A program made the position numbers and the translations under genes. A DNA stretch of 64,000 nt, taken from Ideonella benzenivorans. Lineage in GTDB: Bacteria; Pseudomonadota; Gammaproteobacteria; Burkholderiales; Burkholderiaceae_C. Where the stretch lies: assembly GCF_020387415.1 (NCBI RefSeq), contig NZ_JAGWCB010000007.1, forward strand, positions 310,001-374,000. The letters are read 5' to 3'. The stretch's first letter is position 1; every line of letters starts with the position of its first letter. Below the pieces are notes generated by a model that made no database searches, had not been told where the DNA came from, and saw only the letters and a list, made by a program, of their open reading frames with translations. Positions 5,442-53,318 of the stretch are shown in pieces.

Positions 5442-6905
5442 ATGGCATTCCTGTGGTCCTGGCTGAAACCGCTGTCGCGCACGCGGCTGTCCTGGCGCAT
5501 CTTCCTGGCGGTGTTCGGAACCGGGCTGGCCGTGTCCCTGCTGGTGGGCGCGGCCACGCGCTGGAACTTCAACCGCGAGTTTCTCGGCTACCTGAACGAC
5601 GTGGCGGCCGGGCGCATGACCTATGTGGGCCCCCGGCTGGAACGCGCCTATGCCGAGCATGGCAACTGGGACTTCCTGCGGGAGGAGCCGCGCCACTGGT
5701 TCCATCTGCTGCGGCCGGTGCCGGGCGAGGAACTGCCGGCGGACGTGGACCCGGTGCGCCAGGCGCCGCCCACCTCCGACCTGACCGGGGCCAGCCTGCG
5801 CCTGGGGCTGCTGGACAGCCAGGGGCAGTGGGTGGCGGGCTTTCGCAACCAGGTGCCGGGCATGCTGCGCAACCCGATCCAGGTCGGCGGCGTGACCGTG
5901 GGCTGGCTGGTGCTGGCGCCCTTTCAGAGTGTGGCGGAAGGCGGGGCGGAGCGCTTCGGCCACGGCCAGGCGCAGGCCAGCCTGGCCATCGCCGCCGTCG
6001 CAGGCCTGCTGGCGGCATTGATCGCCTGGTGGGTGTCGAGCCGCCTGCTGGCACCGGTGCGCCGTGTGGCGGCCGCCACCCACAAGCTGGCGGCCGGCGC
6101 CTACGACACGCAGGTGGAGGTGCTCAGCGACGACGAGGTGGGCCAGCTGGCCCGCGACTTCAACCTGCTGGCCCATTCCCTGGCCCGCCACGAAGCGCTG
6201 CGGCGCGACTTCCTGGCCGATGTCTCGCACGAGCTGCGCACCCCGCTGGCGGTGTTGACCGGCGAGATCGACGCGCTGGTCGATGGCATCCGGCCGGTGT
6301 CGACAGCGGCGCTTGAATCTTTGCGCAGCGAAGCCGAGCGCCTGGGCGAGTTGGTGAAGGACCTCAACGAACTGGCGCTGTCGGACGTGGGCGCCCTGAG
6401 CTACCGCATGGCGCCGGTGGCACTGGCCGAGCTGCTGGCGCGCCGGGTGGCCGATCACCGCTGGCGCTTCGCCCAGCGCGGGCTGGACCTGCAGCTGGTG
6501 CTGCCCGACAGGGAGCCTGGCAGGGTGCTGGGCGATGAAGGGCGGTTGCAGCAGTTGCTGGACAACCTGCTGGGCAACAGCCTGCGCTACACCGATGCCC
6601 CGGGGCGGGTGCGTCTGACCCTGGCGGACCGCGGGCGTGAGCTGGTGCTGGACGTGGAGGACAGCGCGCCTGGCGTGCCGGAGGCCTTGCTGCCGCGGCT
6701 GTTCGAGCGCCTGTTCCGGGTCGAGGGCTCCCGCAGCCGGGACACCGGCGGCGCGGGTCTGGGCCTGTCCATCTGTCGCAACATCGTGCAGGCGCACCGG
6801 GGGCGCATCGAGGCCCTGCCCTCGCCCTTGGGCGGCGTCTGCATCCGGATCCACTGGCCGCGGCTGGCGGGGCGCGGGCCGCGCAAGGAGTCTGCCGATG
6901 AATGA
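5442..6905 (+). CDS. Sensor histidine kinase, BaeS-like
   Basis: A 487-residue membrane sensor kinase. The order is: first TM at about residues 18-40 (RIFLAVFGTGLAVSLLVGA), a periplasmic sensor of about 140 residues, second TM near 185-205, a HAMP linker, HisKA with phosphoacceptor His263 ([12 protein letters not shown]), and HATPase_c with N-box NLLGNSLRYTD and G-box DTGGAGLGLSICRNIV. The chosen ATG at 5442 begins directly with a cytoplasmic basic stretch followed by TM1; the open frame extends further upstream without kinase-like sequence. It overlaps the response regulator gene by 8 bases. It most likely senses envelope damage or efflux substrates and controls the divergent RND operon. The BaeS assignment rests on architecture and context. 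Confidence 0.93.
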   Translation: MAFLWSWLKPLSRTRLSWRIFLAVFGTGLAVSLLVGAATRWNFNREFLGYLNDVAAGRMTYVGPRLERAYAEHGNWDFLREEPRHWFHLLRPVPGEELPADVDPVRQAPPTSDLTGASLRLGLLDSQGQWVAGFRNQVPGMLRNPIQVGGVTVGWLVLAPFQSVAEGGAERFGHGQAQASLAIAAVAGLLAALIAWWVSSRLLAPVRRVAAATHKLAAGAYDTQVEVLSDDEVGQLARDFNLLAHSLARHEALRRDFLADVSHELRTPLAVLTGEIDALVDGIRPVSTAALESLRSEAERLGELVKDLNELALSDVGALSYRMAPVALAELLARRVADHRWRFAQRGLDLQLVLPDREPGRVLGDEGRLQQLLDNLLGNSLRYTDAPGRVRLTLADRGRELVLDVEDSAPGVPEALLPRLFERLFRVEGSRSRDTGGAGLGLSICRNIVQAHRGRIEALPSPLGGVCIRIHWPRLAGRGPRKESADE

Positions 6906-11585: not shown

Positions 11586-11849
11586 TCAGGGACGCCGGCG
11601 AGGCGCGGAGCCGGTGGGGTGGGCACTGCGGTCCAGGTGGCGGAACGTGATGCGCCCCTTGCCCAGATCGTAGGGGGAGAGCTCCAGCGAGACGGCGTCA
11701 CCCGCCAGGATGCGGATGTGGTTCTTCTTCATCTTGCCGGCGGTGTAGGCGACCAGCTCGTGACCATTCTCCAGGGTCACACGAAAACGCGAGTCGGGCA
11801 GCACTTCGTTGACGATGCCGCGCATTTCAATGAGTTCTTCCTTGGCCAT
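11586..11849 (-). CDS. infA: Translation initiation factor IF-1 (paralogue)
   Basis: An 87-residue S1/OB-fold protein that binds the ribosomal A site during initiation. [20 protein letters not shown] followed by [30 protein letters not shown] is the diagnostic IF-1 sequence. It departs from the textbook 72-residue form in starting MAKEELIE instead of MAKEDVIE and in having a basic C-terminal tail ([11 protein letters not shown]). Many Burkholderiales carry two infA genes, one in the ribosomal protein operon and a second elsewhere; the tail and the isolated context mark this as the second type. A purine-rich CGGAGGGC lies about 6 bases before the ATG. It stands alone between a hybrid kinase and a recombinase. 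Confidence 0.95.
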
Positions 11850-12160: not shown

Positions 12161-13186
12161 CTATGATGTTTCTTGTTCCCATGCAGCTTGTTCTTCGAGC
12201 GCTGCGAGGCGACGCCGATAGCGTTCCATCACATCCGGTTCGGTCACGCCCAGCCAGCGGGCAACCTGGTCAGGCGGGACGCGCCGATGCAGCGCATGCA
12301 AGGCAAAAGCATGGCGCAAGCTGTAGGCACTGATGTCCTCGGCAGCAAGGCCCGCCTCGGCCAGGGTTGTCTTGACCGCGACATGGTGGGCGACCTTGCC
12401 CCAGGGTTTGCCGCTGCCCTTGGTCGACGGCAGGAACTGAGGCCCGGGGATGGCCAACTCCGCCCGCAGCCCTTGCCATCGCCGCAGCACCGGCACGGCC
12501 CAGCGGGGCAGAGGGATGGGCACACGGGTTGGGGGCTCGGTGCCCACGAGGTGCACTGTCGAGACCTCCGACGGTGCTGCCGAGAGGAAGAGACGGGCGC
12601 TGGGCAGGGCCCGGACCTCGGCAGGGGTGAGTCCGGCACCCAGGTGCAGGGCGAGGGCGGCGTGGTTGCGGACCTGCTGCCATGTGGGCAGACCCGCGCA
12701 AGCGGAGGCGGAACCGGTCCGGGCGAGCCAGCGCGCCAGCTTCGCCGCTTGCTGCATTGAGAGCTCCTGCGGCAACTCGTCGAAGCGGCTGGCGTTGGCG
12801 TAGCGGATGTCGGGCCGCCGCTCCAGGAGTTGGAGGCAGGCCAGGGGGGCTGGCAGGCCCTGATCACGGTGGTAAAGCCCCAGCACACGGTCAAGCAGGC
12901 GCAGCACACGCCAAGCATGGCGTGGCGACAACCCATGATGCTGTTCGCGTTCAGCCAGGTAGTCCTGCAGCAGTCCGGCATTGAGCTGCTGGGGAAACAT
13001 CTGGCGCTGACAAGCCCAGTCGGCGAATGCATGCCAGATGTGCCGGTAGACCTCCTCGGAGGATTCCCGGCGCAGCAACGCACGCTCTCGGGCCTGTCGT
13101 TGCCAGAGTGACCAAGCCAATGCGTAAGCGGCTGGCGGATGAGGGGGCGGCAGATGCTGGGACATAAATGAACTAACGGCAGACAC
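12161..13186 (-). CDS. Tyrosine recombinase-like protein with degenerate catalytic site
   Basis: A 341-residue protein with the two-domain layout of tyrosine recombinases: a SAM-like core-binding N-terminal half (about 20-110) and a catalytic fold (about 140-330). The tyrosine is kept (MERYRRR, Tyr323), as is the second Arg (YSLRHAF, Arg291). The first catalytic Arg of the usual TGLR motif is Thr187 (GAGLTPAEV), the His of HxxR is Tyr288, and the His/Trp of LGH is Val314. It may be catalytically weak or inactive and act as a DNA-binding partner of the intact recombinase at 13767-15635. The GTG at 13186 follows a GGGAG; ATG at 13165 is the alternative (334 residues). Its first codons lie in one arm of a 16-bp inverted repeat. 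Confidence 0.8.
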   Translation of the reverse strand: MSAVSSFMSQHLPPPHPPAAYALAWSLWQRQARERALLRRESSEEVYRHIWHAFADWACQRQMFPQQLNAGLLQDYLAEREQHHGLSPRHAWRVLRLLDRVLGLYHRDQGLPAPLACLQLLERRPDIRYANASRFDELPQELSMQQAAKLARWLARTGSASACAGLPTWQQVRNHAALALHLGAGLTPAEVRALPSARLFLSAAPSEVSTVHLVGTEPPTRVPIPLPRWAVPVLRRWQGLRAELAIPGPQFLPSTKGSGKPWGKVAHHVAVKTTLAEAGLAAEDISAYSLRHAFALHALHRRVPPDQVARWLGVTEPDVMERYRRRLAALEEQAAWEQETS

Positions 13187-13247
13187 CGGGAGCTCCCGCG
13201 AACTGCACGTTTCAGGCTTTGAGTAAAGATTTGCCGTTAGTTCATTT
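13166..13247. repeat. 16-bp perfect inverted repeat flanking 50 bp at the recombinase start
   Basis: AAATGAACTAACGGCA at 13166-13181 is repeated exactly as its reverse complement TGCCGTTAGTTCATTT at 13232-13247. The 50 bases between hold a perfect 12-bp palindrome, CGGGAGCTCCCG (13187-13198), which also supplies the GGGAG before the recombinase GTG. The arms are AT-richer than the surroundings. Likely roles are a recombinase-binding/recombination site or an autoregulatory operator; a small invertible segment is possible but 50 bp is short for that. Confidence 0.75.
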
Positions 13248-13315
13248 TAACAGGTGGTCTGCCGGCCTCCCAAGAAACCCATCCCGGGCTTGCTGGGAGA
13301 GCAGCCGGTCCATTC

Positions 13316-13766: not shown

Positions 13767-15635
13767 TCAGCCTGTGCCAGCCCCCGGCCCGGCTGCAGGC
13801 CCGACCCCCGGCAACTCGCCAGCCCCGGCGGCACCAAACGCCTGATCCAGTTCCTGCTGCAGCCGCTCCAACTGCGCGTGGGCATACCGCATGGTGGTCC
13901 GTGGGTCGGCATGCCCCAGCTGACGCTGAACCACCTCGAGCGGGGCCTTGCGTTCCAGCGCGCGGGTGCCAAAGGTATGGCGAAGCCAGTGGGGCGAGGC
14001 ACGCAGGGCGATCGCCCGCTCCGGTCCGGACAGATCGCTGCCCGCAATCGCTTGCCGGACCCAGCGCTTCATGGTCTGGTACAGCGCCTGGTACCCAATG
14101 GGAGCGCGCGGATCCGACAGCCGGGCGAGCAGAGGCCAATCGGCAGACACCTCGGCGCCCACCAGGGGCCCCAAGCCCCGCGCCTCCAGATAAGCAGAGA
14201 GCGCCTCCAGCGCCTGACCGGGCACCGCAATCACCCGGTTGCGGGCGCCCTTGCCATGGACCTGCATCACCCAGCGACCACGGTGCCGGGTCAACTGCCC
14301 CAGGGTGGCGCCGACCAACTCGGAGGCCCGCAACCCGGTCGCCTCCACGAAGGCGAGGATGAACAGCATGCGCTCGCGCGATGCACTGGCTGGCTCTGCC
14401 CACAATTGGCGTAGCAACGCCTGCCAGGCCTCTGGTGTGAACGCTCGGCTGTCCAGCAGGGATCGTCCGGGGTCGTCCCCCAGCCGGCGATTGACCAGCA
14501 TCCAGGGATTGCGAGCCACCAGATAGCCGACATCCACCATCCACGCGAAGAAGCTGCCCAGGATCACCACCGCCTGGTGACGGCTGGCGGTGCTCAGCGG
14601 GCCCCGGAAGGGCGCCCAGCCTTCCCCCATCACGGTGCTGTGCCGACGCGAGATCCACTCTGCCGGCAAATGTTCCAGAAACGCCATATAGGCGAGACAG
14701 TCCTCCACGCCCATCTGGGCGAAGTCGAGCTGCCGCTCATGCGTCAGCCAGAGCAGGAGACGAAAGGCTTCCCGCCGGTAGCTCTTGGCCGTGGCCGATG
14801 ACCCGGCCCGGGCACTCACCCAGGCCTCGATGATCTCCGCATCGGTGCGGGCCCCGGTCAGGACGGCTGAGCCCGGGACGCCGGCATTCGCAGGGCGCCC
14901 GTCGAACAAGGCCCGCTGGGCCACAACCGTGACGCCCTCACCAACCACCTGGGCGGACACCGCCCCGCCTTCAAACGGGCGGGGCGGCGCGACGGCGCTG
15001 CTGTCTGGCAGCAAGGTGGCCAGATGCTGGGCCAGGCGTTGCGCTTTCACCGCACCAATCGCGGGCAGAGACCGCCACCAATGGCCGCCTTGCGCGATCA
15101 GCCGCTGCAGGTCGATCAAGAGCAGGAGCCCGCACCGGGACAGACGATCGGCCACCACGGGATCGAACCAGCCGTCGATCCGGTCCTCCGGGCGCGGTTG
15201 TTCTGCCGCGACGGCCTGCAGGTGACGCAGCAACGCCAGCTGCCGTTCACGCAGACGGCGGCGACGATCGGCCTTGAGGTCGGGCGGGTGCGCCTCCTCA
15301 TAGAGCTGGAGGACCTCGGCCTCGGTCCAGCCGTCCAGGTCCCGCTCGGCGATGAAGTCCTCCAGGTCCGGCCGGGCGTCGGTCGTTCGGGTTCGAATGG
15401 TCAGGCCGATCAGGCGCCATGCCCGGTGACCTTGCCGACGTGCCAGCGAACGCAAATGGTCCACCACCTGTCGGTGGGCCGTCACCGCCTGATGGCCGTG
15501 ATCGATGCCCAGGTAGCGAAAGGCCGATTCCTGGACAGTCACCCCCTCGGCGACTGCGCGCAGGTGGGCGAAGTGGTGCTGCCCGATGCGGGGACACCCA
15601 CCGGAAGCCGTGGAACGGCGGACAGAAGAGGGCAT
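13767..15635 (-). CDS. Large site-specific tyrosine recombinase (622 residues)
   Basis: A tyrosine recombinase with an unusually long N-terminal half. Residues 1 to about 230 form an extra domain like that of long beta-proteobacterial integrases (annotated in such proteins, I believe, as DUF3701), including a helix-hairpin-like LPAIGAVKAQRLAQHL. A core-binding domain follows at about 270-390, then the catalytic domain at about 400-600. The catalytic set is complete: Arg436 (TGLRASEL), Lys in HGKGARNRVIAV, His549 and Arg552 (HWLRHTFGT), His575 (LGHADPRTT) and Tyr584 (MRYAHAQ). It is probably active. Its position beside parAB-repA suggests dimer resolution or integration for this replicon, which is inference. 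No strong ribosome binding site is visible. Confidence 0.9.
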   Translation of the reverse strand: MPSSVRRSTASGGCPRIGQHHFAHLRAVAEGVTVQESAFRYLGIDHGHQAVTAHRQVVDHLRSLARRQGHRAWRLIGLTIRTRTTDARPDLEDFIAERDLDGWTEAEVLQLYEEAHPPDLKADRRRRLRERQLALLRHLQAVAAEQPRPEDRIDGWFDPVVADRLSRCGLLLLIDLQRLIAQGGHWWRSLPAIGAVKAQRLAQHLATLLPDSSAVAPPRPFEGGAVSAQVVGEGVTVVAQRALFDGRPANAGVPGSAVLTGARTDAEIIEAWVSARAGSSATAKSYRREAFRLLLWLTHERQLDFAQMGVEDCLAYMAFLEHLPAEWISRRHSTVMGEGWAPFRGPLSTASRHQAVVILGSFFAWMVDVGYLVARNPWMLVNRRLGDDPGRSLLDSRAFTPEAWQALLRQLWAEPASASRERMLFILAFVEATGLRASELVGATLGQLTRHRGRWVMQVHGKGARNRVIAVPGQALEALSAYLEARGLGPLVGAEVSADWPLLARLSDPRAPIGYQALYQTMKRWVRQAIAGSDLSGPERAIALRASPHWLRHTFGTRALERKAPLEVVQRQLGHADPRTTMRYAHAQLERLQQELDQAFGAAGAGELPGVGPAAGPGAGTG

Positions 15636-16548
15636 GGCTCAATTTTCCGTACCCTACCCCGTTCGTGCAAGAGATTATCGTAATAATCTAAGTATTAAAT
15701 AATTTCGTCAAAACGATCATCTTTGGCATCGCTGGGGCTTTCCCGCCTCAAATCAAAGACTTACGAGTCTTTTGCCGATCTCAAATCCAAGCTTCAGCCC
15801 ACGGGGGTCGATCACCGAGACACGCCTTCAGCGTGCACGTCGTCCGCAAGGTCATGCCGGATGCGGCCACCCGCGCCATGCTGGCCAAGGCTCACGTTGG
15901 AAACGGGAGGGCGATGCTGCGTGACCCACCCTTCGCGCTCGCCATGGCGCAGCCAGTCACGCTGGCGAGACGCTTTTTGATCGGACCGGGGGTCGAGCAG
16001 AACAGATGGAGGGGGTCAGGCAACAGGCCATTGGTCGGGGCTGTCGCGCACTGTTCTGCGACGGTCCGTCGCGCCCTGAGATGTCAGAGGGGGTCGTGCG
16101 ACCCTGCGCCCGGCTGATCGCAGCACAGCCAACAAGAGCTCCGCCATTCAGGAAAGTTGCGGCTCGGGCGAACAGGTCGTCGGATTCTTTGCGGGGCAGG
16201 CAGTGCCCTCGAGACCAAACCTGCGGAGCGAGGGAGACCCCCAGCAGGGGCGCTCAAAGGCATCAGCCAAGCCCCTCGTTGTCTTACAGGCCCCACAGCG
16301 CAGGCGCGCCTGACCGCTCGGCCGACATCCCTCTGAAACCTGCCCCACGGTGTCCGGGCTGGCAGAGTGGTCCAGGATGCATTCGTGCATGCTCAAGCCC
16401 TGAACCGTATTGCGGGGCCCGGTCCCAGTCCGCTGGCACCTCAGCATCGATGCAGCACGATCCGCAGTCAACGACCTGACCAAACGCGTCGTTGTTGCCG
16501 CCCCGCACGACGACTGCAGGCGAATCGGCCGAAGGATTGGCCGACCCC
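15636..16548. other. Long intergenic region without a recognisable gene
   Basis: About 0.9 kb lies between the large recombinase and the parB terminator. The first 150 bases are markedly AT-rich and hold three dyads (separate entry). The rest is GC-rich with only short frames of 60-110 codons on both strands, none resembling a known protein or showing steady codon bias. Possible contents are the recombinase promoter, a recombination site, a small RNA or decayed coding sequence. Confidence 0.5.
15672..15772. repeat. Cluster of three dyads in AT-rich DNA upstream of the large recombinase
   Basis: AGATTAT-cgta-ATAATCT spans 15672-15689, TCGT-caaa-ACGA spans 15705-15716, and AAAGACT-tacg-AGTCTTT spans 15755-15772. 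All have 4-base centres. They lie 37-137 bases upstream of the ATG of the large recombinase in a local AT-rich island. They could be operator sites, recombinase arm sites, or, for the third, a weak plus-strand hairpin. Confidence 0.6.
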
Positions 16549-16628: not shown

Positions 16629-17654
16629 TCATGCCTTGACGAATCCTTCCAGCCAGGCCACGAGTTCTGGGTAACGCTCCGGGGATACCGTCCCCGGCTC
16701 CAGTTTGACGGTCACCCTGCCCTTCGCATCAGACTGAAGCGTTGCAGCCACCTTGCCCTGCCGAAGAAACTTCTGGGACGAGACCTCCAGTGACCGGACC
16801 ACCGGCTCAGAAATGCGGCACAGGCGGTCAAACACCTGGACGGCCGTCAAACGCTCATCGGACTCCTGCAACTGCTTTGCCCGCAAGAGCACGCCGTCGG
16901 GATCCTTCTGCAGGGCTTCAGACAGGGGCTGCGCCCAGCGGAATTGAATGTCGAGTGGCGAAGGGAAGGCCGCCACAACCGACTCCGGCAGACGTGCCAG
17001 GGCCAGGCTCTTCGAGACCAAGGAGACATCCACCTTGACCGCTTCCGCGAGCTTGCGCAGCGATGGATACAGCCCTTCATCCAGGGCCTTGCGGTACATG
17101 CAGCCCTGCTCCCAGGCGCTCAGGTTCTTGCGGCCGCGGTTTTCCCGCTCCATCGCTTCGAACAGCTCCTGATCCGTCGCGTCCTCCACCAGCGCGCGCA
17201 CCGGAATGCCCAGCTCCAGACAGGCGCGGTGCCGGCGATGCCCAAATACGATTTCGTATTGCGGCCCTGTTGAACCGTTCAACACACTGGCCAAGGGACG
17301 GACACGGACTGGCTGAACATTGCCGCCGGCAGATTCAATCTCCGCCTTCAGTTCGTCGAAATCCGCGGTCTCGAACGATGCGTCGTGCCGATTGGCCCAC
17401 TTCGAGGGCCGGATCAGCGCCGGGTCGATCTGACGAACTGGGCTCGCCCCGTCAAAGGACCTCAACCGTTCCTTGAGATCCTCCGCCTCCTTGATGGCGG
17501 CACTCTGGGACGACATGAATTGCAGCATGGACCCCGGAGCCGTTTTGGGACGGGCCGCCTCGCCAGTGGGCTCGGGTCCCGCGCGATGGGCCGAGACCGG
17601 CGGAAGATTCAAGGCTTGGATCAGCCCGGCTTTGGCCGCCAACTTCTTGCTCAT
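16629..17654 (-). CDS. parB: ParB-family chromosome/plasmid partition protein
   Basis: A 341-residue centromere-binding protein. After a variable basic N-terminus (1-70), the ParB/Spo0J nucleotide-binding domain covers about 72-165, with NVQPVRVRP (112-120) and the CTP-binding/arginine motif GHRRHRA (138-144). A central helix-turn-helix region follows (YPSLRKLAEAVKVDVSLVSKSL), with a smaller C-terminal dimer region ending WLEGF. It should load on parS-type palindromes and work with the ATPase encoded upstream to segregate the replicon. Its start overlaps the parA stop (ATGA). One copy of the GTTGAAC palindrome lies inside its coding sequence, encoding VLNGSTG. Confidence 0.93.
   Translation of the reverse strand: MSKKLAAKAGLIQALNLPPVSAHRAGPEPTGEAARPKTAPGSMLQFMSSQSAAIKEAEDLKERLRSFDGASPVRQIDPALIRPSKWANRHDASFETADFDELKAEIESAGGNVQPVRVRPLASVLNGSTGPQYEIVFGHRRHRACLELGIPVRALVEDATDQELFEAMERENRGRKNLSAWEQGCMYRKALDEGLYPSLRKLAEAVKVDVSLVSKSLALARLPESVVAAFPSPLDIQFRWAQPLSEALQKDPDGVLLRAKQLQESDERLTAVQVFDRLCRISEPVVRSLEVSSQKFLRQGKVAATLQSDAKGRVTVKLEPGTVSPERYPELVAWLEGFVKA
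17268..17284. repeat. Candidate centromere (parS-like) palindrome, copy 1
   Basis: TGTTGAAC-C-GTTCAACA, two 8-base arms around a single central base, lies inside parB. The 15-bp core GTTGAACCGTTCAAC is identical at 17682-17696 and 19014-19028. It is not the canonical TGTTTCACGTGAAACA parS, but secondary replicons of Burkholderiales use their own centromere sequences. Confidence 0.8.
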
Positions 17655-18922
17655 CGCTTAGCCCCCTGCTTGTTGGTGCCCGTTGAACCGTTCAACACCC
17701 CTGCCCTCCCCTGCCCTGCGATCTGCACTTGCTTGGCCCACACCGAACGGATGGAGCCATCGATGTGCCCCACGAAAGAATCGTACGCATCGCGCGCACG
17801 CTTGAAAGTACGTGCGGAGCCATCGTACTTGGCCACGTCGTACACCGTGCCGAATTCGGCTGCCGTCACACCGGTCACCGCGGTCTTCGGAATCTCGACC
17901 GGCAGCACCTTCTCCGCGTAGGTCTGGCCGATCCACTGCCGCACGATGTTGCTGGCTGCATCGGTCGAATCCACGCGCGCCAGCAGGATGTGAATGAAGT
18001 CAAACTCCTTGCTCAGGCCACGGTTGGTCAGCAATTCCGCCGTCAGATCAGAGAACAGGCTCCAGAACTGGGATGCCGAAGCGAAATCCAATGCATTGGG
18101 TGGCAGGGGCATGATGATGCCGTTCGACGCCATGAAGGCGTTGATGGTCGTGTACGACAGCGCGGGCGGCGTGTCGATGATGATGACATCGTATTCATCC
18201 CGCACATCGTCGATGCCCAGATCCAGCACGCGCCAGAATTCGAACCCGGGCTCCTGCGTCTGCCGGGCAGGCAGGGCGAACTCGGCGCCGAAGAGAACCG
18301 GCGCGGCCGAGACCAGATCAATGCCGTTCCAATAGGTAGGGCGAATCGCGTATCGGATTGAAGTCTCCGTGCCCATGGCGAGAGGAAGAATCGTGTCGCC
18401 CTCCTCCACCTCGGTGTCCGGCAGGATCCCAAACAAGGTGGTGAGCGAACCTTGTGGGTCGGTGTCGATCACCAGCACCCGATGCCCCAGCAGCGAAAGC
18501 CCCTGCGCCAAGGTGACGGCCGTCGTCGTCTTGCTCACGCCGCCCTTGAAGTTTCCAATGCTGATCGTGACGGCCTCCGCCCCGGTCGGACGGAGCAGCT
18601 CCTTGCGATATTCGCGAATCCAGCTCCGGGCCTCCTCCAGACTGAATTCGCGGCGGCTGCCCGCCTCGTTAAGCCGGCCGGCCGGCAGATCCCCTTTGCT
18701 CAGACGGTGGCTGAGAGAGCCTTTCTCGATACCGCACAACCCGGCCAACTGGCTGAGATTGAAGACAGGTGGCGTCTTCCGTGCGGTGGGTGCCAGCATG
18801 GCCGTGCGAATCTGCGCCATCATGCCAACGGCACGTTCGGCTTGGTCCGCAATGTCTGCCAAGGAGATTGGGGCGGGTGACTTGAAAGCGATGCGATCCA
18901 ACGGGAGTCTCCGTTTCGACAA
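17651..18922 (-). CDS. parA: ParA-family partition ATPase with N-terminal HTH
   Basis: A 423-residue Walker-type partition ATPase. Residues up to about 110 form a DNA-binding extension with a helix-turn-helix (NLSQLAGLCGIEKGSLSHRL, about 55-74), typical of P1/P7-type large ParA proteins that repress their own operon. The deviant Walker A is KGGVSKTT (126-133), with Walker A' VIDTDPQGSLTTLFG and Walker B VIIIDTPPALSY. No ATG fits: TTG at 18922 gives 423 residues, while TTG at 18901, seven bases after GGAG, is better placed and gives 416. It is coupled to parB by a 4-base overlap. A centromere-like palindrome sits in its last codons and another lies about 90 bases upstream. Confidence 0.94.
   Translation of the reverse strand: MSKRRLPLDRIAFKSPAPISLADIADQAERAVGMMAQIRTAMLAPTARKTPPVFNLSQLAGLCGIEKGSLSHRLSKGDLPAGRLNEAGSRREFSLEEARSWIREYRKELLRPTGAEAVTISIGNFKGGVSKTTTAVTLAQGLSLLGHRVLVIDTDPQGSLTTLFGILPDTEVEEGDTILPLAMGTETSIRYAIRPTYWNGIDLVSAAPVLFGAEFALPARQTQEPGFEFWRVLDLGIDDVRDEYDVIIIDTPPALSYTTINAFMASNGIIMPLPPNALDFASASQFWSLFSDLTAELLTNRGLSKEFDFIHILLARVDSTDAASNIVRQWIGQTYAEKVLPVEIPKTAVTGVTAAEFGTVYDVAKYDGSARTFKRARDAYDSFVGHIDGSIRSVWAKQVQIAGQGRAGVLNGSTGTNKQGAKR
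17682..17696. repeat. Candidate centromere (parS-like) palindrome, copy 2
   Basis: GTTGAAC-C-GTTCAAC lies inside the last codons of parA, about 30 bases before its stop. It has the same orientation and central base as the other copies. Confidence 0.8.
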
Positions 18923-18934
18923 GCCATCAAAGGC

Positions 18935-18971
18935 TTGACAAGAAAAAGCTGATAGGACGCTATTCTGTCAA
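18935..18971. promoter_or_regulatory. Candidate parAB promoter/operator with TTGACA...TGTCAA dyad
   Basis: TTGACA at 18935-18940 and TGTCAA at 18966-18971 form an inverted pair around 25 bases; the dyad extends imperfectly inwards (TTGACAAGAA against TTCTGTCAA). On the minus strand the distal TTGACA is a consensus -35 for parA, although no clear -10 follows at 16-18 bases. The dyad is a plausible binding site for the HTH domain of ParA. Confidence 0.45.
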
Positions 18972-19777
18972 GGAACGGGCTGCGTGGAAAGAGAAGAAGC
19001 CCGTCAACAGGGTGTTGAACCGTTCAACACCTTGGATTTCGTAGCGAACTTCCCTTCGAAACCATGAATGGGCATCTGCTTTCGGCTTTGTCTGTCCCCG
19101 GTCGCTTTGGAATGACTATGAGTTCTTCAAACTCTTTAATACCTTTAGAACACAAATTCTCCTTGAAAAACAAAGACTTGTATGCTCTTCTGTGAGTGGA
19201 TTCGGGGGCGCTTGGAGACTTTTCAGGGGGATGCGTGAGGGGGATCGGGCACTGACGGCGAAAAAACAGGACCTGAGGTGAGTGAACACAGGAATTGCTC
19301 CTGCAGACGGCTCTCGGTGAGCCGGATGGGGCATGCATCGTCCGAGAAAGGCCGATCCAGAACGTGGCCCGTTGCATTCAATGGTCTCTTTCGGGGGCGT
19401 GGCAGGCCTGAAGGTGAGAGTAAACGGGAGACTGGCCGTTGAGAGTGAATGGTGGGGCTGGGTGGCCCTCCCCCGGAGCCCACTTGTCTGGCGAAAGAAC
19501 CGACCGGGTTCCGCCGGGCTCCTGAAAAACCTCCAGTTCAGAATGACCGTTGCCCTCAGTGCGGAGACTTTTCGGGAGCGAGTTCGGGCGAGCCGACCCT
19601 CTCCGGGCGATCGGGCGTGCTTGCCCGGCTCGGGCGGCTCCGCGCAGGACCGTGTGAGCGTTTTCGGGAAGTGTGTGAAGCGCCCTCTTCACCCCCGCCG
19701 AGTCGGCGGCCCGTGGACGGCAATGACCCGCGGATGGAGTGTGAAAGCCGAATTCACATCTGAGGTAGAGTCGCGCC
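18972..19777. other. Candidate replication origin (oriV) between parA and repA
   Basis: About 800 bases without a credible gene separate the divergent parA and repA. The region 19105-19195 is strikingly AT-rich for this genome and could be the unwinding element. Downstream, degenerate short repeats recur: GTGAGTGGA (19192), GTGAGTGAA (19278), GTGAGAGTAAA (19414), TTGAGAGTGAA (19439), GTGTGAGCG (19652), GTGTGAAAG (19739). GGAGACTTTTC occurs twice (near 19213 and 19563) and TTCGGGGGCG twice (19201, 19391). These look like iterons for the adjacent initiator. No perfect DnaA box (TTATNCACA) was found by eye. Open frames here look accidental. Confidence 0.65.
19011..19031. repeat. Candidate centromere (parS-like) palindrome, copy 3 (longest)
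   Basis: Two 10-base arms, GGTGTTGAAC and GTTCAACACC, flank a single C, making the longest copy. It lies between parA and repA, about 90 bases upstream of the parA TTG. It is the only copy outside coding sequence, so it may also serve as an operator. Confidence 0.85.
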
Positions 19778-21205
19778 ATGTCGGAACTGGCGCCTGAGTC
19801 CCCTTCCCTGTCCACCTCCTCTGCGGCCTCGTCCTCGCGGCGGCGCCCGGTGGAAGCCGCGGTGAAGGCGCCGACGCGGGCTCCGGCGCCCTTGCGCAAG
19901 CCCGTCAACACCTTGGCCATCGTGCCCAAGTCGGCCCGTATCACCTCCTTGGGGCGCAAGGCCTACAACGTCCTGCTCTATGAAGCCCAGGACCAGGGGC
20001 TGGAGAAGGATGTCTTCCGGGTGCCGCTGGAGCGGGTGGTGCGGGGGGTGGATTTCGACTCCAACGACCACGCCCTGATCAAGAAGCATCTGCGCGCGAT
20101 GGTGTCGACCACGGTGGAATGGCAATCGCCGACCACCGGGGAAGGTGCGGCCTGGAACGTCTCCGGCCTGCTGGCCCATGCGCGCCTCACCAAGGAACGC
20201 GGTCAGGTCTGGGTCGAGTGGTCTTATGCCGTGAACCTCAAGCAGGAGTTGCTGGAGCCGACGGTGTTCGCCCGCCTCAAGCTGGAGATCATCAGCCAGC
20301 TTCGCTCCCATGCCGGGATCGCGCTCTATGAGATCTGCACCCGTTACAAGGACATCGGGCGGACCTCACGCCAGCCCTGGCGCTGGTGGCATCCGGTCCT
20401 CAGCGGTCAGCCCGTATCGGAGCGCACGGCCAAGCTCGAGTACCGGATTTTCAAGCGTGACACCCTCAAACCGGCCATCGCGGAGGTGAGCGCTGTCACG
20501 GACCTGGAAGTGGAACTGCTCGAGCACAAGGAAGGTCGGTCCATCAGTGAGATCCAGTTCCTGATCCGGCCCAAGCAGCAGACGCCCCTGGCGCTCAAAC
20601 AGCCACCCGAGCCGGTGGATCTTCGCCTGGTGGAGCGCGCGGTGTCCCTGGGCGTCGAGGAAGACAAGGCCGAGGATCTGCTGCAGACGCATGGCGGCCC
20701 GGCGGTGGAAACCGGGCTGGAGGTGCTGGCCCAGCGGGTGGCGTCCGGCTTTCCCTCGCCACTCAAGGACCCCTCCCGTTACCTGCGGGCCTTGATGCCT
20801 GGGTCGGCACCGGCCACCGCTGCGCATGAGGCGGAGACGTCACCACCGTCGGCCCCTGCCGAAGAGGCGCCGTCGGCCGAGGCGCATGGAGAGCTGCAGG
20901 CCCGGCGCCAGATGCGCTGGACCGAGGAATGGAACCGCCGCCGCCGTGAGCAGGTGATCGGGCAGATCGCGGCCATGTCCGAGGAGGGGCAGGGCCAGTT
21001 GGTGCAGGACCTCTTGTCGGACATGGAGCGTCGGCAGTTGCACCCTTCGATCCGCAAGCGTCTGCAGACCAGTGGCTGGCGCCATCCGTTGGTGTTGCCC
21101 GAGATGGTGCGCTATTACGCCGAAGGTTCCCTGGGCGAATCCTGGGACAAGCCCACGCCCCAGCAACTGCTGCAGATTGCCACCGAATTGGGCGATCTGG
21201 GCTGA
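19778..21205 (+). CDS. repA: Plasmid/chromid-type replication initiator protein
   Basis: A 475-residue initiator of the type found on secondary chromosomes and megaplasmids of Burkholderiales. After a Ser/Pro/Ala-rich N-terminus (1-45), VNTLAIVPKSARITSLGRKAYNVLL opens the winged-helix initiator domain (about 46-290). In it, SQLRSHAGIALYEICTRYKDIGRTSRQPW resembles the first winged helix of Rep_3-type initiators, and IFKRDTLKPAIAEVSAVTDLEVELLE resembles the second. The C-terminal 180 residues are acidic/helical and less typical. AGGTAGAG lies about 12 bases before the ATG. It is divergent from parAB across the candidate origin, the standard layout of a rep-par module. The role is clear from context; the exact family needs a profile search. 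Confidence 0.88.
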   Translation: MSELAPESPSLSTSSAASSSRRRPVEAAVKAPTRAPAPLRKPVNTLAIVPKSARITSLGRKAYNVLLYEAQDQGLEKDVFRVPLERVVRGVDFDSNDHALIKKHLRAMVSTTVEWQSPTTGEGAAWNVSGLLAHARLTKERGQVWVEWSYAVNLKQELLEPTVFARLKLEIISQLRSHAGIALYEICTRYKDIGRTSRQPWRWWHPVLSGQPVSERTAKLEYRIFKRDTLKPAIAEVSAVTDLEVELLEHKEGRSISEIQFLIRPKQQTPLALKQPPEPVDLRLVERAVSLGVEEDKAEDLLQTHGGPAVETGLEVLAQRVASGFPSPLKDPSRYLRALMPGSAPATAAHEAETSPPSAPAEEAPSAEAHGELQARRQMRWTEEWNRRRREQVIGQIAAMSEEGQGQLVQDLLSDMERRQLHPSIRKRLQTSGWRHPLVLPEMVRYYAEGSLGESWDKPTPQQLLQIATELGDLG

Positions 21206-52445: not shown

Positions 52446-53318
52446 TCACACCCGCAGCGTGGCCAGGTCGGCCACGCACCGGCCGTCGCTCTGGCGCTGC
52501 ACCTGGGTCCAGCTCCAGTGGCCCAGGCCGGTGTGGCGCAGCGCGCGCAGCCGAAAGCGCAGGGCCTCGCCCGGGTTGACGTTGCCGTGGAAGACCATCT
52601 GCCGCTCGCGCACCACGCCGTGCGCGGCCCGTTCGGTGGCGTGCAGGCCCCAGTGGCCGTGCGCGCGATCGGCCAGGGCCTGGAAGCTGGCGAAGTAGAG
52701 CAGGCCGGCGCCGTTGAAGTCGTTGTAGGGGCAGGGCGTCACGGCCCAGTCGGCCAGTTCAGGCAGCTCGACCAGAGGGGCCTGCGTCGGCAGCGCGAAG
52801 CGCTCCCGCCAGCCCTGGGCCCGCACCGCGCGCACGCTGGCATCGGCCGCCTGCGCGGCGCTGGCCAGGGCGGCGTCGGCCGCCGTCGGCAAGGTGGGCA
52901 GCGGCACCCGCGCGACGGTGTGGTTGTCACCCGCCCGTTCGCGCACCACCGCGGCGGTGAGCAGGCTCAGCTGCGCCACCTCGCCCTGCGGCCCCTGGGC
53001 CCACTGCTGGCTGAAGTGCCGCGAGCGGCCCAGCGGCTGGTGGGCGATGCGCAGGTCCAGGGTCTGGTCCTCGTCCACCTCGCGCAGGCGGGCGCCGCGC
53101 AGGTGCACCAGCGTGAAGGCGGCGTACACGCGCCGGCCCTGCGCATCCTGCAGCGCCGAGGGCCGGCAGCCGTGGGTGGCCACCAGCGCCTGCCAGTGCA
53201 GGTCGCCCGCGGTCTTGAGCAGCCAGTGTTCGGACAGGCCCTGGCCGCACAGCTGGGGCATGCCCAGGCGGATGCGCTGCGCCAGCGGCTCGGCCTGCGC
53301 GCGCGGCTGCCCGCTCAT
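52446..53318 (-). CDS. LnmK/Pnap_2097-like biosynthetic protein (double hot-dog fold)
   Basis: A 290-residue protein. RIRLGMPQLCGQGLSEHWLLKTAGDLHW at the N-terminus and PCPYNDFNGAGLLYFASFQALADRA in the middle are features of the Pnap_2097/LnmK-type family. In leinamycin synthesis LnmK is a bifunctional acyltransferase/decarboxylase acting on an acyl carrier protein. The sequence suggests two hot-dog units, about 20-145 and 170-290. It is coupled by a 4-base overlap to a flavin monooxygenase gene upstream, so the two probably act together on one substrate. No polyketide synthase or carrier protein lies nearby. The family assignment is from memory of conserved blocks and should be checked by profile. 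Confidence 0.72.
   Translation of the reverse strand: MSGQPRAQAEPLAQRIRLGMPQLCGQGLSEHWLLKTAGDLHWQALVATHGCRPSALQDAQGRRVYAAFTLVHLRGARLREVDEDQTLDLRIAHQPLGRSRHFSQQWAQGPQGEVAQLSLLTAAVVRERAGDNHTVARVPLPTLPTAADAALASAAQAADASVRAVRAQGWRERFALPTQAPLVELPELADWAVTPCPYNDFNGAGLLYFASFQALADRAHGHWGLHATERAAHGVVRERQMVFHGNVNPGEALRFRLRALRHTGLGHWSWTQVQRQSDGRCVADLATLRV

Follow-up and report, generated by a model that had tools for sequence, protein, structure and literature searches.

The window analyzed here, 64,000 nucleotides of Ideonella benzenivorans DNA, carries the origin and partition genes of what is probably a circular replicon of ~0.6 Mb that replicates unidirectionally, with its terminus and a dimer-resolution site ~4 kb behind the origin. 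The composition of the DNA suggests copying in one direction, with the finish ~4,000 bases behind the start. The computed evidence comprises the module itself, its candidate parS repeats, broad collinearity with a closed plasmid, a one-signed strand skew, the polarity of the KOPS motif GGGNAGGG with a reversed segment, and the recurrent pairing of a recombinase with a dif-like palindrome.

As the first-pass annotation had described, parB, parA, an oriV gap and repA adjoin one another at 16629-21205, and the profile search that it had proposed for RepA and ParAB returned Pfam ParB_N/SoPB_HTH, AAA_31 and Rep3_N/Rep3_C, all above their cut-offs. The features of the module are listed in window coordinates, with counterparts in the closed Ideonella dechloratans plasmid NZ_CP088082.1 (W01):

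16629..17654, minus strand: parB, centromere-binding protein of 341 aa (Pfam ParB_N, SoPB_HTH)
17269..17283: candidate parS copy 1, within parB (W01 counterpart 675262)
17651..18922, minus strand: parA, partition ATPase of 423 aa (Pfam AAA_31, 1.4e-33)
17682..17696: candidate parS copy 2, parA 3' end (W01 counterpart 675675)
18923..19777: candidate oriV, the 855-bp gap from parA to repA
19014..19028: candidate parS copy 3, in oriV (W01 counterpart 677007)
19135..19148, plus strand: AT-rich block TTTAATACCTTTAG, exact in the window and W01
19192..19292, plus strand: predicted iteron array, with GTGAGTGGATTCGGG, GTGAGGGGGATCGGG and GTGAGTGAACACAGG at 19192, 19235 and 19278
19740..19758: inverted repeat TGTGAAAGCCGAATTCACA, immediately upstream of repA
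19778..21205, plus strand: repA, replication initiator of the Rep3 (WH1/WH2) superfamily by Pfam, 475 aa

The arrangement is that of a Rep3/iteron plasmid origin with ParABS: a Rep3 initiator (Rep3_N 2.8e-8, Rep3_C 3.4e-9) adjoins the predicted iteron array, and ParA and ParB are accompanied by private candidate parS repeats. RepA has its closest plasmid relative in W01 (83.2%), and 52 of 299 genomes of the family, its own included, contain a match to it at E<=0.001. ParB passes the TIGR00180 cut-off; ParA resembles RepA of repABC systems, yet scores 228.6 bits with TIGR03453, below the cut-off of 348.45. The centromere-like repeat that the first-pass annotation had called private is indeed so, as GTTGAACCGTTCAAC has three exact copies at the module (mean 0 in 100 shuffles) and no other exact copy in the genome. 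The one further genomic copy, with 1 mismatch, lies at position 74838 of the same contig. Exact candidate parS copies were found in 8/14 genomes or records searched, invariably on the repA contig. ParB would sit on the three parS copies, with ParA segregating the origins.

Within oriV, an alignment of five sequences showed conserved blocks (mean column identity 51%). The pattern G[TG]GA[GA]N6C[AG]GG, picked after viewing this alignment (A1), has six copies in the gap against 0.10 expected from the contig as a whole. The array advances in 43-bp steps with weaker units in between, and more copies of the pattern lie at 19414, 19574 and 19654. RepA presumably binds these iterons and starts replication. 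The AT-rich block, of which AATACCTTT is present in 5/5 aligned sequences, is a possible unwinding element, and the inverted repeat a possible RepA operator. No DnaA box TTATCCACA was found in the oriV gap at <=2 mismatches.

The contig that carries the module (C14) measures 606,669 bp in a genome of 4.49 Mb. Its gene order broadly follows the closed 708,898-bp "plasmid unnamed1" of I. dechloratans CCUG 30977 (W01) over its full length, with 188 of 211 reciprocal best hits on the same strand and a Spearman coefficient of 0.91 (blastp on genes called by a custom codon-usage caller, which in the window missed the second integrase and a rhodanese). The two contig ends land at W01 ~283 kb and ~277 kb, the pattern expected of one gap in a circle. 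This broad collinearity makes it very likely that C14, itself unclosed in the assembly, is a secondary replicon. The first-pass view of the module as the origin and partition hub of such a replicon is therefore very likely right, also in light of the sole strong DnaA match of the genome, which lies on C17; the findings named there as speaking against it, a skew minimum elsewhere together with a dnaA origin on the same molecule, or an integrated element, did not materialize.

The monotone skew described below had prompted us to consider the module as an integrated plasmid or island in the main chromosome, with C14 a chromosomal contig. Such an insertion would fit a skew that is monotone across the whole contig, a low-GC module within high-GC surroundings and tyrosine recombinases adjoining the module. 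Against it, C14 tracks a whole closed replicon, mainly in one orientation, with its ends meeting at W01 277-283 kb. The one 16S motif searched had no match on C14, only 1/57 tRNA matches of the genome lies there, no XerCD-type dif of Burkholderiales was found on it at <=3 mismatches, and the best ParB_N hit of the genome is on C17, as is the strong hit for DnaA. The idea was abandoned after the comparison with the closed W01, and we consider it highly improbable.

The probable secondary replicon, a chromid or a megaplasmid, has a GC content of 0.6965 against 0.6944 for part of C17, as expected of a chromid. The first-pass annotation had also put module and surroundings at matching GC, which was not confirmed (module 62.8%, contig 69.7%), and the housekeeping genes that it cited make a weak argument. 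IF-1 has three redundant copies in the genome with the top-scoring one on C9, and for the tRNA two genes on C13 tie at 53.4 bits. ARAGORN called five tRNAs on C14; a covariance search retained one, and the other four were set aside.

The skew minimum had been expected at 18970-19780, whereas the cumulative skew of C14 climbs from end to end, with its minimum at base ~467 and its maximum at ~606,665. Skew is positive in 27/30 20-kb bins of C14 and 28/35 of W01. The strand component R at fourfold sites is positive in 8/8 octants of both, and when each replicon is split into halves, the bootstrap interval of every half excludes 0 on the positive side. Gene-strand bias was rejected as the cause, since strands are balanced (238+/185- in C14, 241+/281- in W01) and the fourfold-site component is one-signed. 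This single-signed skew round the circle, as in unidirectional replicons, points to one-way replication. The W01 signal is weaker, with R in the last octant at 0.003 for fourfold sites and -0.014 for all third positions, and several of its bins have a raw skew below zero (e.g., -0.043 at 620-640 kb).

The distant RepA relatives W09 (Diaphorobacter) and W10 (Burkholderia cenocepacia) have an ordinary two-sided skew (half by half, +0.025/-0.049 and +0.030/-0.026), and the one-way pattern is thus unsupported as a general trait of the RepA family. Four further contigs were sampled at 10-12 stretches each: G183:C1 appears two-sided (KOPS 2/14 left, 14/5 right), G296:C4 is weakly two-sided, G268:C1 is negative in 8/12 stretches, on both sides, and no pattern stood out clearly in the stretches from G181:C2, which belongs to the same genus (RepA 32%).

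The motif GGGNAGGG runs mostly in one direction, with forward/reverse counts of 143/44 in C14 and 141/52 in W01. The maximum-scoring reversed segment (C14 325,652-329,801; W01 674,386-677,865, both in record coordinates) has one end at the palindrome or close to it and the other slightly past the start of repA, and its score was matched in 64/5000 and 17/5000 permutations, respectively. Between palindrome and repA we counted 0 forward and 6 reverse motifs in C14 and 1/8 in W01, against 143/38 and 140/44 elsewhere. The reversed motifs of this short arm sit in genes homologous between C14 and W01, and the two are therefore not independent cases. The motif is itself biased by coding strand, and the counts of 24/26 in plus-strand and 96/9 in minus-strand genes of C14 indicate that polarity persists after allowing for gene strand. 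Whole-record counts were 26/17 (W02), 22/31 (W03), 37/54 (W04), 29/34 (W05), 29/44 (W06), 90/104 (W07), 26/19 (W08), 106/102 (W10) and 15/11 (W11). W09 stands at 23/48, i.e., 48/23 in the repA direction, as polar in ratio as a one-way replicon despite its two-sided skew, so KOPS counts serve as supporting evidence only. KOPS polarity, with KOPS function in the genus assumed, is by itself no proof of one-way replication.

An ordinary bidirectional megaplasmid or chromid could also show a one-signed skew if its backbone had been excised from one chromosomal arm and had not yet re-equilibrated. C14 does equal the chromosome in GC, and within a single arm both the skew sign and the KOPS polarity would be uniform, as to the left of dnaA in our partial chromosomal control (9/10 sampled stretches negative, KOPS 17/54; to the right, 4/6 stretches positive and KOPS unpolarised at 13/16). 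The same strand component is nevertheless present in genes that the two replicons do not share (C14, n=148, R=0.053 [0.031, 0.075]; W01, n=273, R=0.021 [0.003, 0.038]). Only 40-47% of the DNA is alignable between C14 and W01, which means that the signal lasted through heavy turnover, and a reversed KOPS segment between palindrome and repA would be unexpected for an inherited skew. We regard this origin of the skew as quite improbable.

To the left of parB, in the region of the proposed terminus, lie the following features:

12161..13186, minus strand: second tyrosine recombinase, weak match, syntenic in I. dechloratans (57%)
13767..15635, minus strand: Xer-like tyrosine recombinase with DUF3701, 622 aa, adjoining the palindrome
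15667..15694: dif-like palindrome GCAAGAGATTATCGTAATAATCTAAGTA, predicted dimer-resolution/terminus site

The recombinase and palindrome (13.8-15.7 kb of the window) lie outside the module coordinates and formed no part of the first-pass finding. I. dechloratans has the same 18-bp palindrome core AGATTATCGTAATAATCT (15672-15689 in the window), there within a perfect 11-6-11 palindrome, and GAT[AT]A N5-7 T[AT]ATC has a single match each in C14 and W01, the palindrome itself. At 4.1 kb from repA, this putative dif/terminus lies near the origin, as in unidirectional replicons. The adjacent recombinase matches Pfam Phage_integrase (2.2e-24) and DUF3701 (9.4e-16) and has the catalytic residues R436, K462, H549, R552, H575 and Y584 of the TnpR-type class, K462 and H549 being read off the sequence and absent from the conserved-column list. 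With XerC/XerD models it reaches ~96 bits against cut-offs of 330-335, which sets it apart from XerCD/dif systems.

An E. coli-like dif on C14 was considered and dropped: there is no such site with <=7 substitutions in 28, and TTATGT[AT]A has one stray copy only. Genome-wide, the dif half-site pattern had no match at <=2 mismatches, and the XerCD-type search gave a candidate on C16 (1 mismatch) and a weak match on C9 (3 mismatches).

TnpR of Tn4401 resolves cointegrates. The recombinase and palindrome by parB could be left over from a transposon or integrative element and play no part in maintaining the replicon, given that DUF3701 recombinases are described in PMC8138268 as the TnpR subgroup, named for TnpR of transposon Tn4401, and that other integrases lie close by. 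A homologue (E<=1e-8) is, however, found in the same stretch as rep/par genes in 48/56 related loci. The palindrome stands just upstream of it (-350..+100 of its start) in 17/40 distinct loci against 0.17 expected, with a pattern derived partly from loci later used for this count. The palindrome is also retained where the recombinase is displaced, as in W01 (3.6 kb away, with five annotated genes between), or unseen, as in locus L319, where the stretch left of repA had no recombinase match, and KOPS polarity switches at or near it. A remnant is thus unlikely.

In the unidirectional replicon that we favor, essentially one fork would leave oriV rightward, travel ~600 kb round the circle and end ~4 kb behind the origin, near the palindrome at 15667-15694. 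There the replicon-encoded DUF3701 recombinase may resolve replicon dimers, probably guided by FtsK along the polar GGGNAGGG motifs. On balance, we lean towards a Burkholderiales replicon of 600-700 kb copied by one fork, with its terminus fixed by a single-recombinase dif system beside rep/par, and towards one broad RepA family with both unidirectional (Ideonella, which stayed or became so) and bidirectional members (B. cenocepacia, Diaphorobacter). Secondary chromosomes have been proposed to start as one-way plasmids and to acquire two-way replication with growth, in PMC4948915 for Burkholderia and in PMC7858055 for Pseudoalteromonas. If our reading is true, a one-way replicon of 0.6-0.7 Mb with two-way members in the same family would make this step testable in one lineage. 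Additionally, the recurrent recombinase and palindrome near the origin suggest a dedicated dimer-resolution cassette travelling with such replicons.

Among known systems, Pseudoalteromonas and Allorhizobium offer examples of unidirectional replication, and our search of the literature found none for Burkholderiales. The I. dechloratans plasmid shares with C14 the module, three candidate parS, the recombinase, the palindrome core, neighbouring genes, a circle-wide gene order that is broadly the same, and the one-signed skew; it differs in being 102 kb larger, with a weaker skew. Allorhizobium ampelinum, by contrast, belongs to the Alphaproteobacteria, and its secondary replicons initiate through repABC. 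Its Chr2 and pAtS4e are likewise secondary replicons of large size, for which PMC13342612 gives a marker frequency with a single slope and depicts ori and ter together.

As described in PMC7858055 and PMC12053903, the unidirectional chromids of Pseudoalteromonas share a GC skew without a two-sided pattern and a dif ~4-27 kb from ori, and replication mode differs among relatives. They differ in belonging to the Gammaproteobacteria, in an initiator possibly akin to that of plasmid R1, and in a 28-bp dif identified via E. coli/Vibrio references, whereas the initiator of C14 is of the Rep3 type and its recombinase, encoded on the replicon, comes with a palindrome of its own. Chromosomes 2 and 3 of B. 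cenocepacia share rep-par-iteron origins, and the c2 iteron CCCGAAAAacCTCACCT is similar to the C14 unit at 19654 (GTGAGCGTTTTCGGG) when the latter is read as its reverse complement; PMC4948915 reports their replication as measured to be essentially or predominantly bidirectional, with a unidirectional plasmid ancestry proposed by its authors. The skew that we computed for the 3.22-Mb B. cenocepacia record, unlike that of C14, is two-sided. For the recombinase, the XerS model of single-recombinase dif systems scores far under its cut-off, and TnpR of Tn4401 shares the DUF3701 domain and TnpR subgroup (PMC8138268). Unlike XerS and TnpR, the C14-type recombinase is encoded next to rep/par on large replicons of Burkholderiales.

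At window positions 16629-21205 the first-pass annotation had proposed an origin and partition module belonging to a secondary replicon; this module stands as real, with open reading frames and Pfam profile matches concurring on it. The features considered here are listed below in window coordinates.

13767-15635, minus strand, tyrosine recombinase with a DUF3701 domain, adjoining the palindrome
15667-15694, dif-like site (palindrome) GCAAGAGATTATCGTAATAATCTAAGTA
16629-17654, minus strand, ParB (ORF and Pfam match)
17651-18922, minus strand, ParA (ORF and Pfam match)
18923-19777, gap between the ParA and RepA genes, oriV candidate
19778-21205, plus strand, Rep3-type initiator RepA (ORF and Pfam match)

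The candidate parS, GTTGAACCGTTCAAC, was found in three copies: one inside parB, a second at the 3' end of parA and a third in the gap (mean in shuffled sequence, 0). Across the 21 contigs of the 4.49-Mb draft genome there is a single additional copy at one mismatch or fewer, the one-mismatch GTTGAATCGTTCAAC at C14:74838-74852, which lies outside the window on the same contig (C14), ~250 kb from the module. Exact copies were present in eight of the 14 genomes or records searched, every time on the repA contig; among the same 14, genomes G268 and G284 each had one 1-mismatch copy away from the repA contig, and none was found in G078, G183, G296 and G225. Six matches to an iteron pattern lie in the gap, where whole-contig composition would give 0.10, and three of them are spaced exactly 43 bp; the count is not independent of the choice of pattern, which was picked only after inspecting the alignment. 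An AT-rich block in the gap has a core, AATACCTTT, common to all five aligned sequences, and no DnaA box was found in the gap at up to two mismatches. The GC content of the module, earlier described as equal to that of its surroundings, was 62.8%, well under the 69.7% of C14.

The window corresponds to C14:310001-374000 of this 606,669-bp contig. Among plasmid relatives, its RepA comes closest (83.2%) to the one that Ideonella dechloratans carries on 'plasmid unnamed1', a closed replicon of 708,898 bp (NZ_CP088082.1, W01). C14 is broadly collinear with W01 round the whole circle, mostly in one orientation and with some blocks displaced. Its path begins at ~283 kb of W01, reaches the module at ~677 kb and, after passing base 1 of the record, stops at ~277 kb; a single gap of ~6 kb would thus close C14. 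Aligned DNA amounted to 47% of C14 and 40% of W01; of 423 called genes on C14, 275 have a homologue in W01, and 211 form reciprocal best-hit pairs, of which 188 share the strand, with circle positions correlated (Spearman 0.91). The sole strong DnaA match in the genome was on the chromosomal contig C17 and not on C14, and the strongest ParB_N match was also on C17. The assignment of the module to a secondary replicon is supported. Regarding the earlier description as a chromid origin, the secondary-replicon part is borne out, with C14 following the closed W01 and the DnaA match on C17, while C14 is at most a possible chromid in the strict sense. Its GC content (0.6965) is in line with that of the chromosome (0.6944 for part of C17), but IF-1 had a higher-scoring copy on C9 than on C14, just one of the 57 tRNA matches in the genome was on C14, and one 16S motif had no match there.

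Besides the infA copy of C9, C14 has two extra copies, at C14:544108-544299 and, near the module, at C14:321640-321831 (window ~11586-11849), the latter syntenic in I. dechloratans. A second Rep3 and ParB_N set was observed on contig C2 (63,234 bp; GC lower, at 63.3%), apparently a plasmid or plasmid fragment.

At an ordinary two-way origin, the minimum of cumulative skew is expected at oriV. The check for such a minimum, anticipated by the first-pass annotation, showed it to be absent, as cumulative skew on C14 rises all the way between base ~467 and base ~606,665; one-way replication, proposed here, would account for this. W01 also had a large net skew (+6917; minimum at 52,715, maximum at 575,634), and counted from oriV, 27 of 30 20-kb bins in C14 and 28 of 35 in W01 were positive. 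Wherever the origin were placed on a closed circle, such a skew would not become a two-way pattern. Gene orientation does not account for it, given the called gene strands (238 plus and 185 minus on C14; 241 and 281 on W01) and the strand-dependent component of skew between plus and minus genes (R), which at fourfold-degenerate sites was above zero in all eight octants of both replicons, although the weakest octant of W01 reached no more than 0.003. With all third positions counted, R was positive in 8/8 octants of C14 and 7/8 of W01. By halves, it was 0.062 and 0.043 in C14 and 0.025 and 0.024 in W01, all bootstrap 95% intervals excluding zero. Inheritance of the skew from a chromosome arm is spoken against by genes without a homologue on the other replicon, which still show positive R in C14 (n=148; 0.053 [0.031, 0.075], bootstrap 95%) and in W01 (n=273; 0.021 [0.003, 0.038]). 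A 10-kb stretch at C14:450001-460000, with 61% GC and negative skew, is perhaps acquired DNA.

As skew controls, 20 stretches were sampled in each of two records with a distantly related RepA, with sides split at repA. Both the 761-kb record of Diaphorobacter HDW4B (RepA 32.7%; +0.025 / -0.049) and the 3.22-Mb B. cenocepacia record, taken as chromosome 2 (RepA 45.3% over 65%; +0.030 / -0.026), were clearly two-sided. Among contigs of closer relatives, skew appeared two-sided in G183:C1 (3.1 Mb, RepA 69%), was weakly two-sided in G296:C4 (RepA 57%), had no clear sampled pattern in G181:C2 and was negative in 8/12 sampled stretches, on both sides, in G268:C1. At ~180-260 kb of this last 1.14-Mb contig (loci L281, L188, L282), a cassette of rep, par and recombinase genes, together with a perfect palindrome, sits in a ~60% GC stretch, the skew sampled along the contig being mostly negative on both sides; the cassette is perhaps an integrated replicon. 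Within the genome of the window the control was partial only, with negative skew in 9/10 sampled stretches left of dnaA on C17 and positive skew in 4/6 to its right (dnaA stretch excluded).

The motif GGGNAGGG is the KOPS of E. coli, and we assume the same role in Ideonella. Its forward/reverse counts were 143/44 in C14 and 141/52 in W01, ranking second and first in polarity, respectively, among 56 same-letter arrangements. The whole-record count for B. cenocepacia was 106/102. The Diaphorobacter record, with its two-sided skew, was nevertheless polar (48/23 in the repA direction), and thus the motif alone does not settle the replication mode. The maximum-scoring reversed segments were C14:325,652-329,801, running from the palindrome to the repA start, and W01:674,386-677,865, beginning at most 0.8 kb from the palindrome and likewise reaching the repA start (score reached in 64/5000 and 17/5000 permutations, respectively); the two are not independent cases, because the short-arm genes are homologous between both. 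The polar motifs locate the turning point at or near the palindrome.

The W01 counterpart of this site, AACTAAGATTATCGTAATAATCTTAGTT, is perfectly palindromic over 28 bp (11-bp arms around a 6-bp centre) and sits in a ~20% GC pocket. The degenerate pattern GAT[AT]A N5-7 T[AT]ATC derived from it occurs once in the 607 kb of C14 and once in the 709 kb of W01, both times at the palindrome. The XerCD-type dif candidate of the genome is on C16, with a weak 3-mismatch match on C9, and none was found on C14 at up to three mismatches. In the adjoining recombinase, the catalytic motifs were located at R436, H549, R552, H575 and Y584, while K462 was identified by reading the sequence; four of these residues (R436, R552, H575, Y584) were among the conserved columns over 22 homologues. 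Matches to the XerC, XerD and XerS models were far under the cut-offs; by sequence, the protein matched solved XerD, XerA and XerH chains.

Of 56 related loci, which were fetched as RepA relatives and are not a random sample, 48 have a recombinase homologue (40 of the 48 distinct); outside the 56 are L103 and L104, without a recombinase match, and L197-L199, L201 and L203, incomplete or unsuitable. The palindrome pattern fell within -350 to +100 bp of the recombinase start in 17 of the 40 distinct loci versus 0.17 expected from the remaining sequence of those same loci, a partly circular count, as the pattern was derived from some of these loci, but a hundredfold excess all the same. Pairing was seen in 10 of 11 loci with recombinases at least 47% identical, the exception being W01, where five annotated genes separate the two, and in 7 of 29 with more distant recombinases. 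Locus L319 (Ideonella oryzae) retains the palindrome beside parB, at 5947, even though the 10 kb to the left of its repA gave no match to the recombinase. An inverted repeat at window 13166-13250, ATGAACTAACGGCA ... TGCCGTTAGTTCAT, flanks the start of a second integrase (12161-13186, minus strand), and W01 has a similar pair at ~667.65-667.73 kb with one arm altered.

The simplest reading of these data is a one-fork replicon with its terminus and dimer resolution ~4 kb behind the origin. RepA would start replication at the iterons, and one fork would leave rightwards, copying ~600 kb round the circle to end ~4 kb behind the origin. The replicon's own recombinase may resolve dimers at the palindrome, to which the polar motifs would lead FtsK.

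Among the matches listed from the open-access literature, no report was found that describes a large Burkholderiales replicon copied unidirectionally, or the DUF3701 recombinase/palindrome pair. One study places DUF3701 within the TnpR subgroup of tyrosine recombinases and gives its function as unknown (PMC8138268). Another describes replicons with a single slope in Allorhizobium, Paracoccus and Pseudoalteromonas, the Betaproteobacteria that it sampled being Burkholderia and Cupriavidus (PMC13342612). For B. cenocepacia c2 and c3, replication is described as essentially or predominantly two-way, with asymmetries taken by the authors as occasional unidirectional rounds (PMC4948915). The one-way mode is known elsewhere, and C14 is a likely one-way large replicon of Burkholderiales with a dif-like system of its own. 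Unidirectional chromids, supported by sequencing depth, are described in Pseudoalteromonas (PMC7858055, PMC12053903), where dif lies ~4-27 kb from the origin; in C14 a dif-like palindrome lies ~4 kb behind it.
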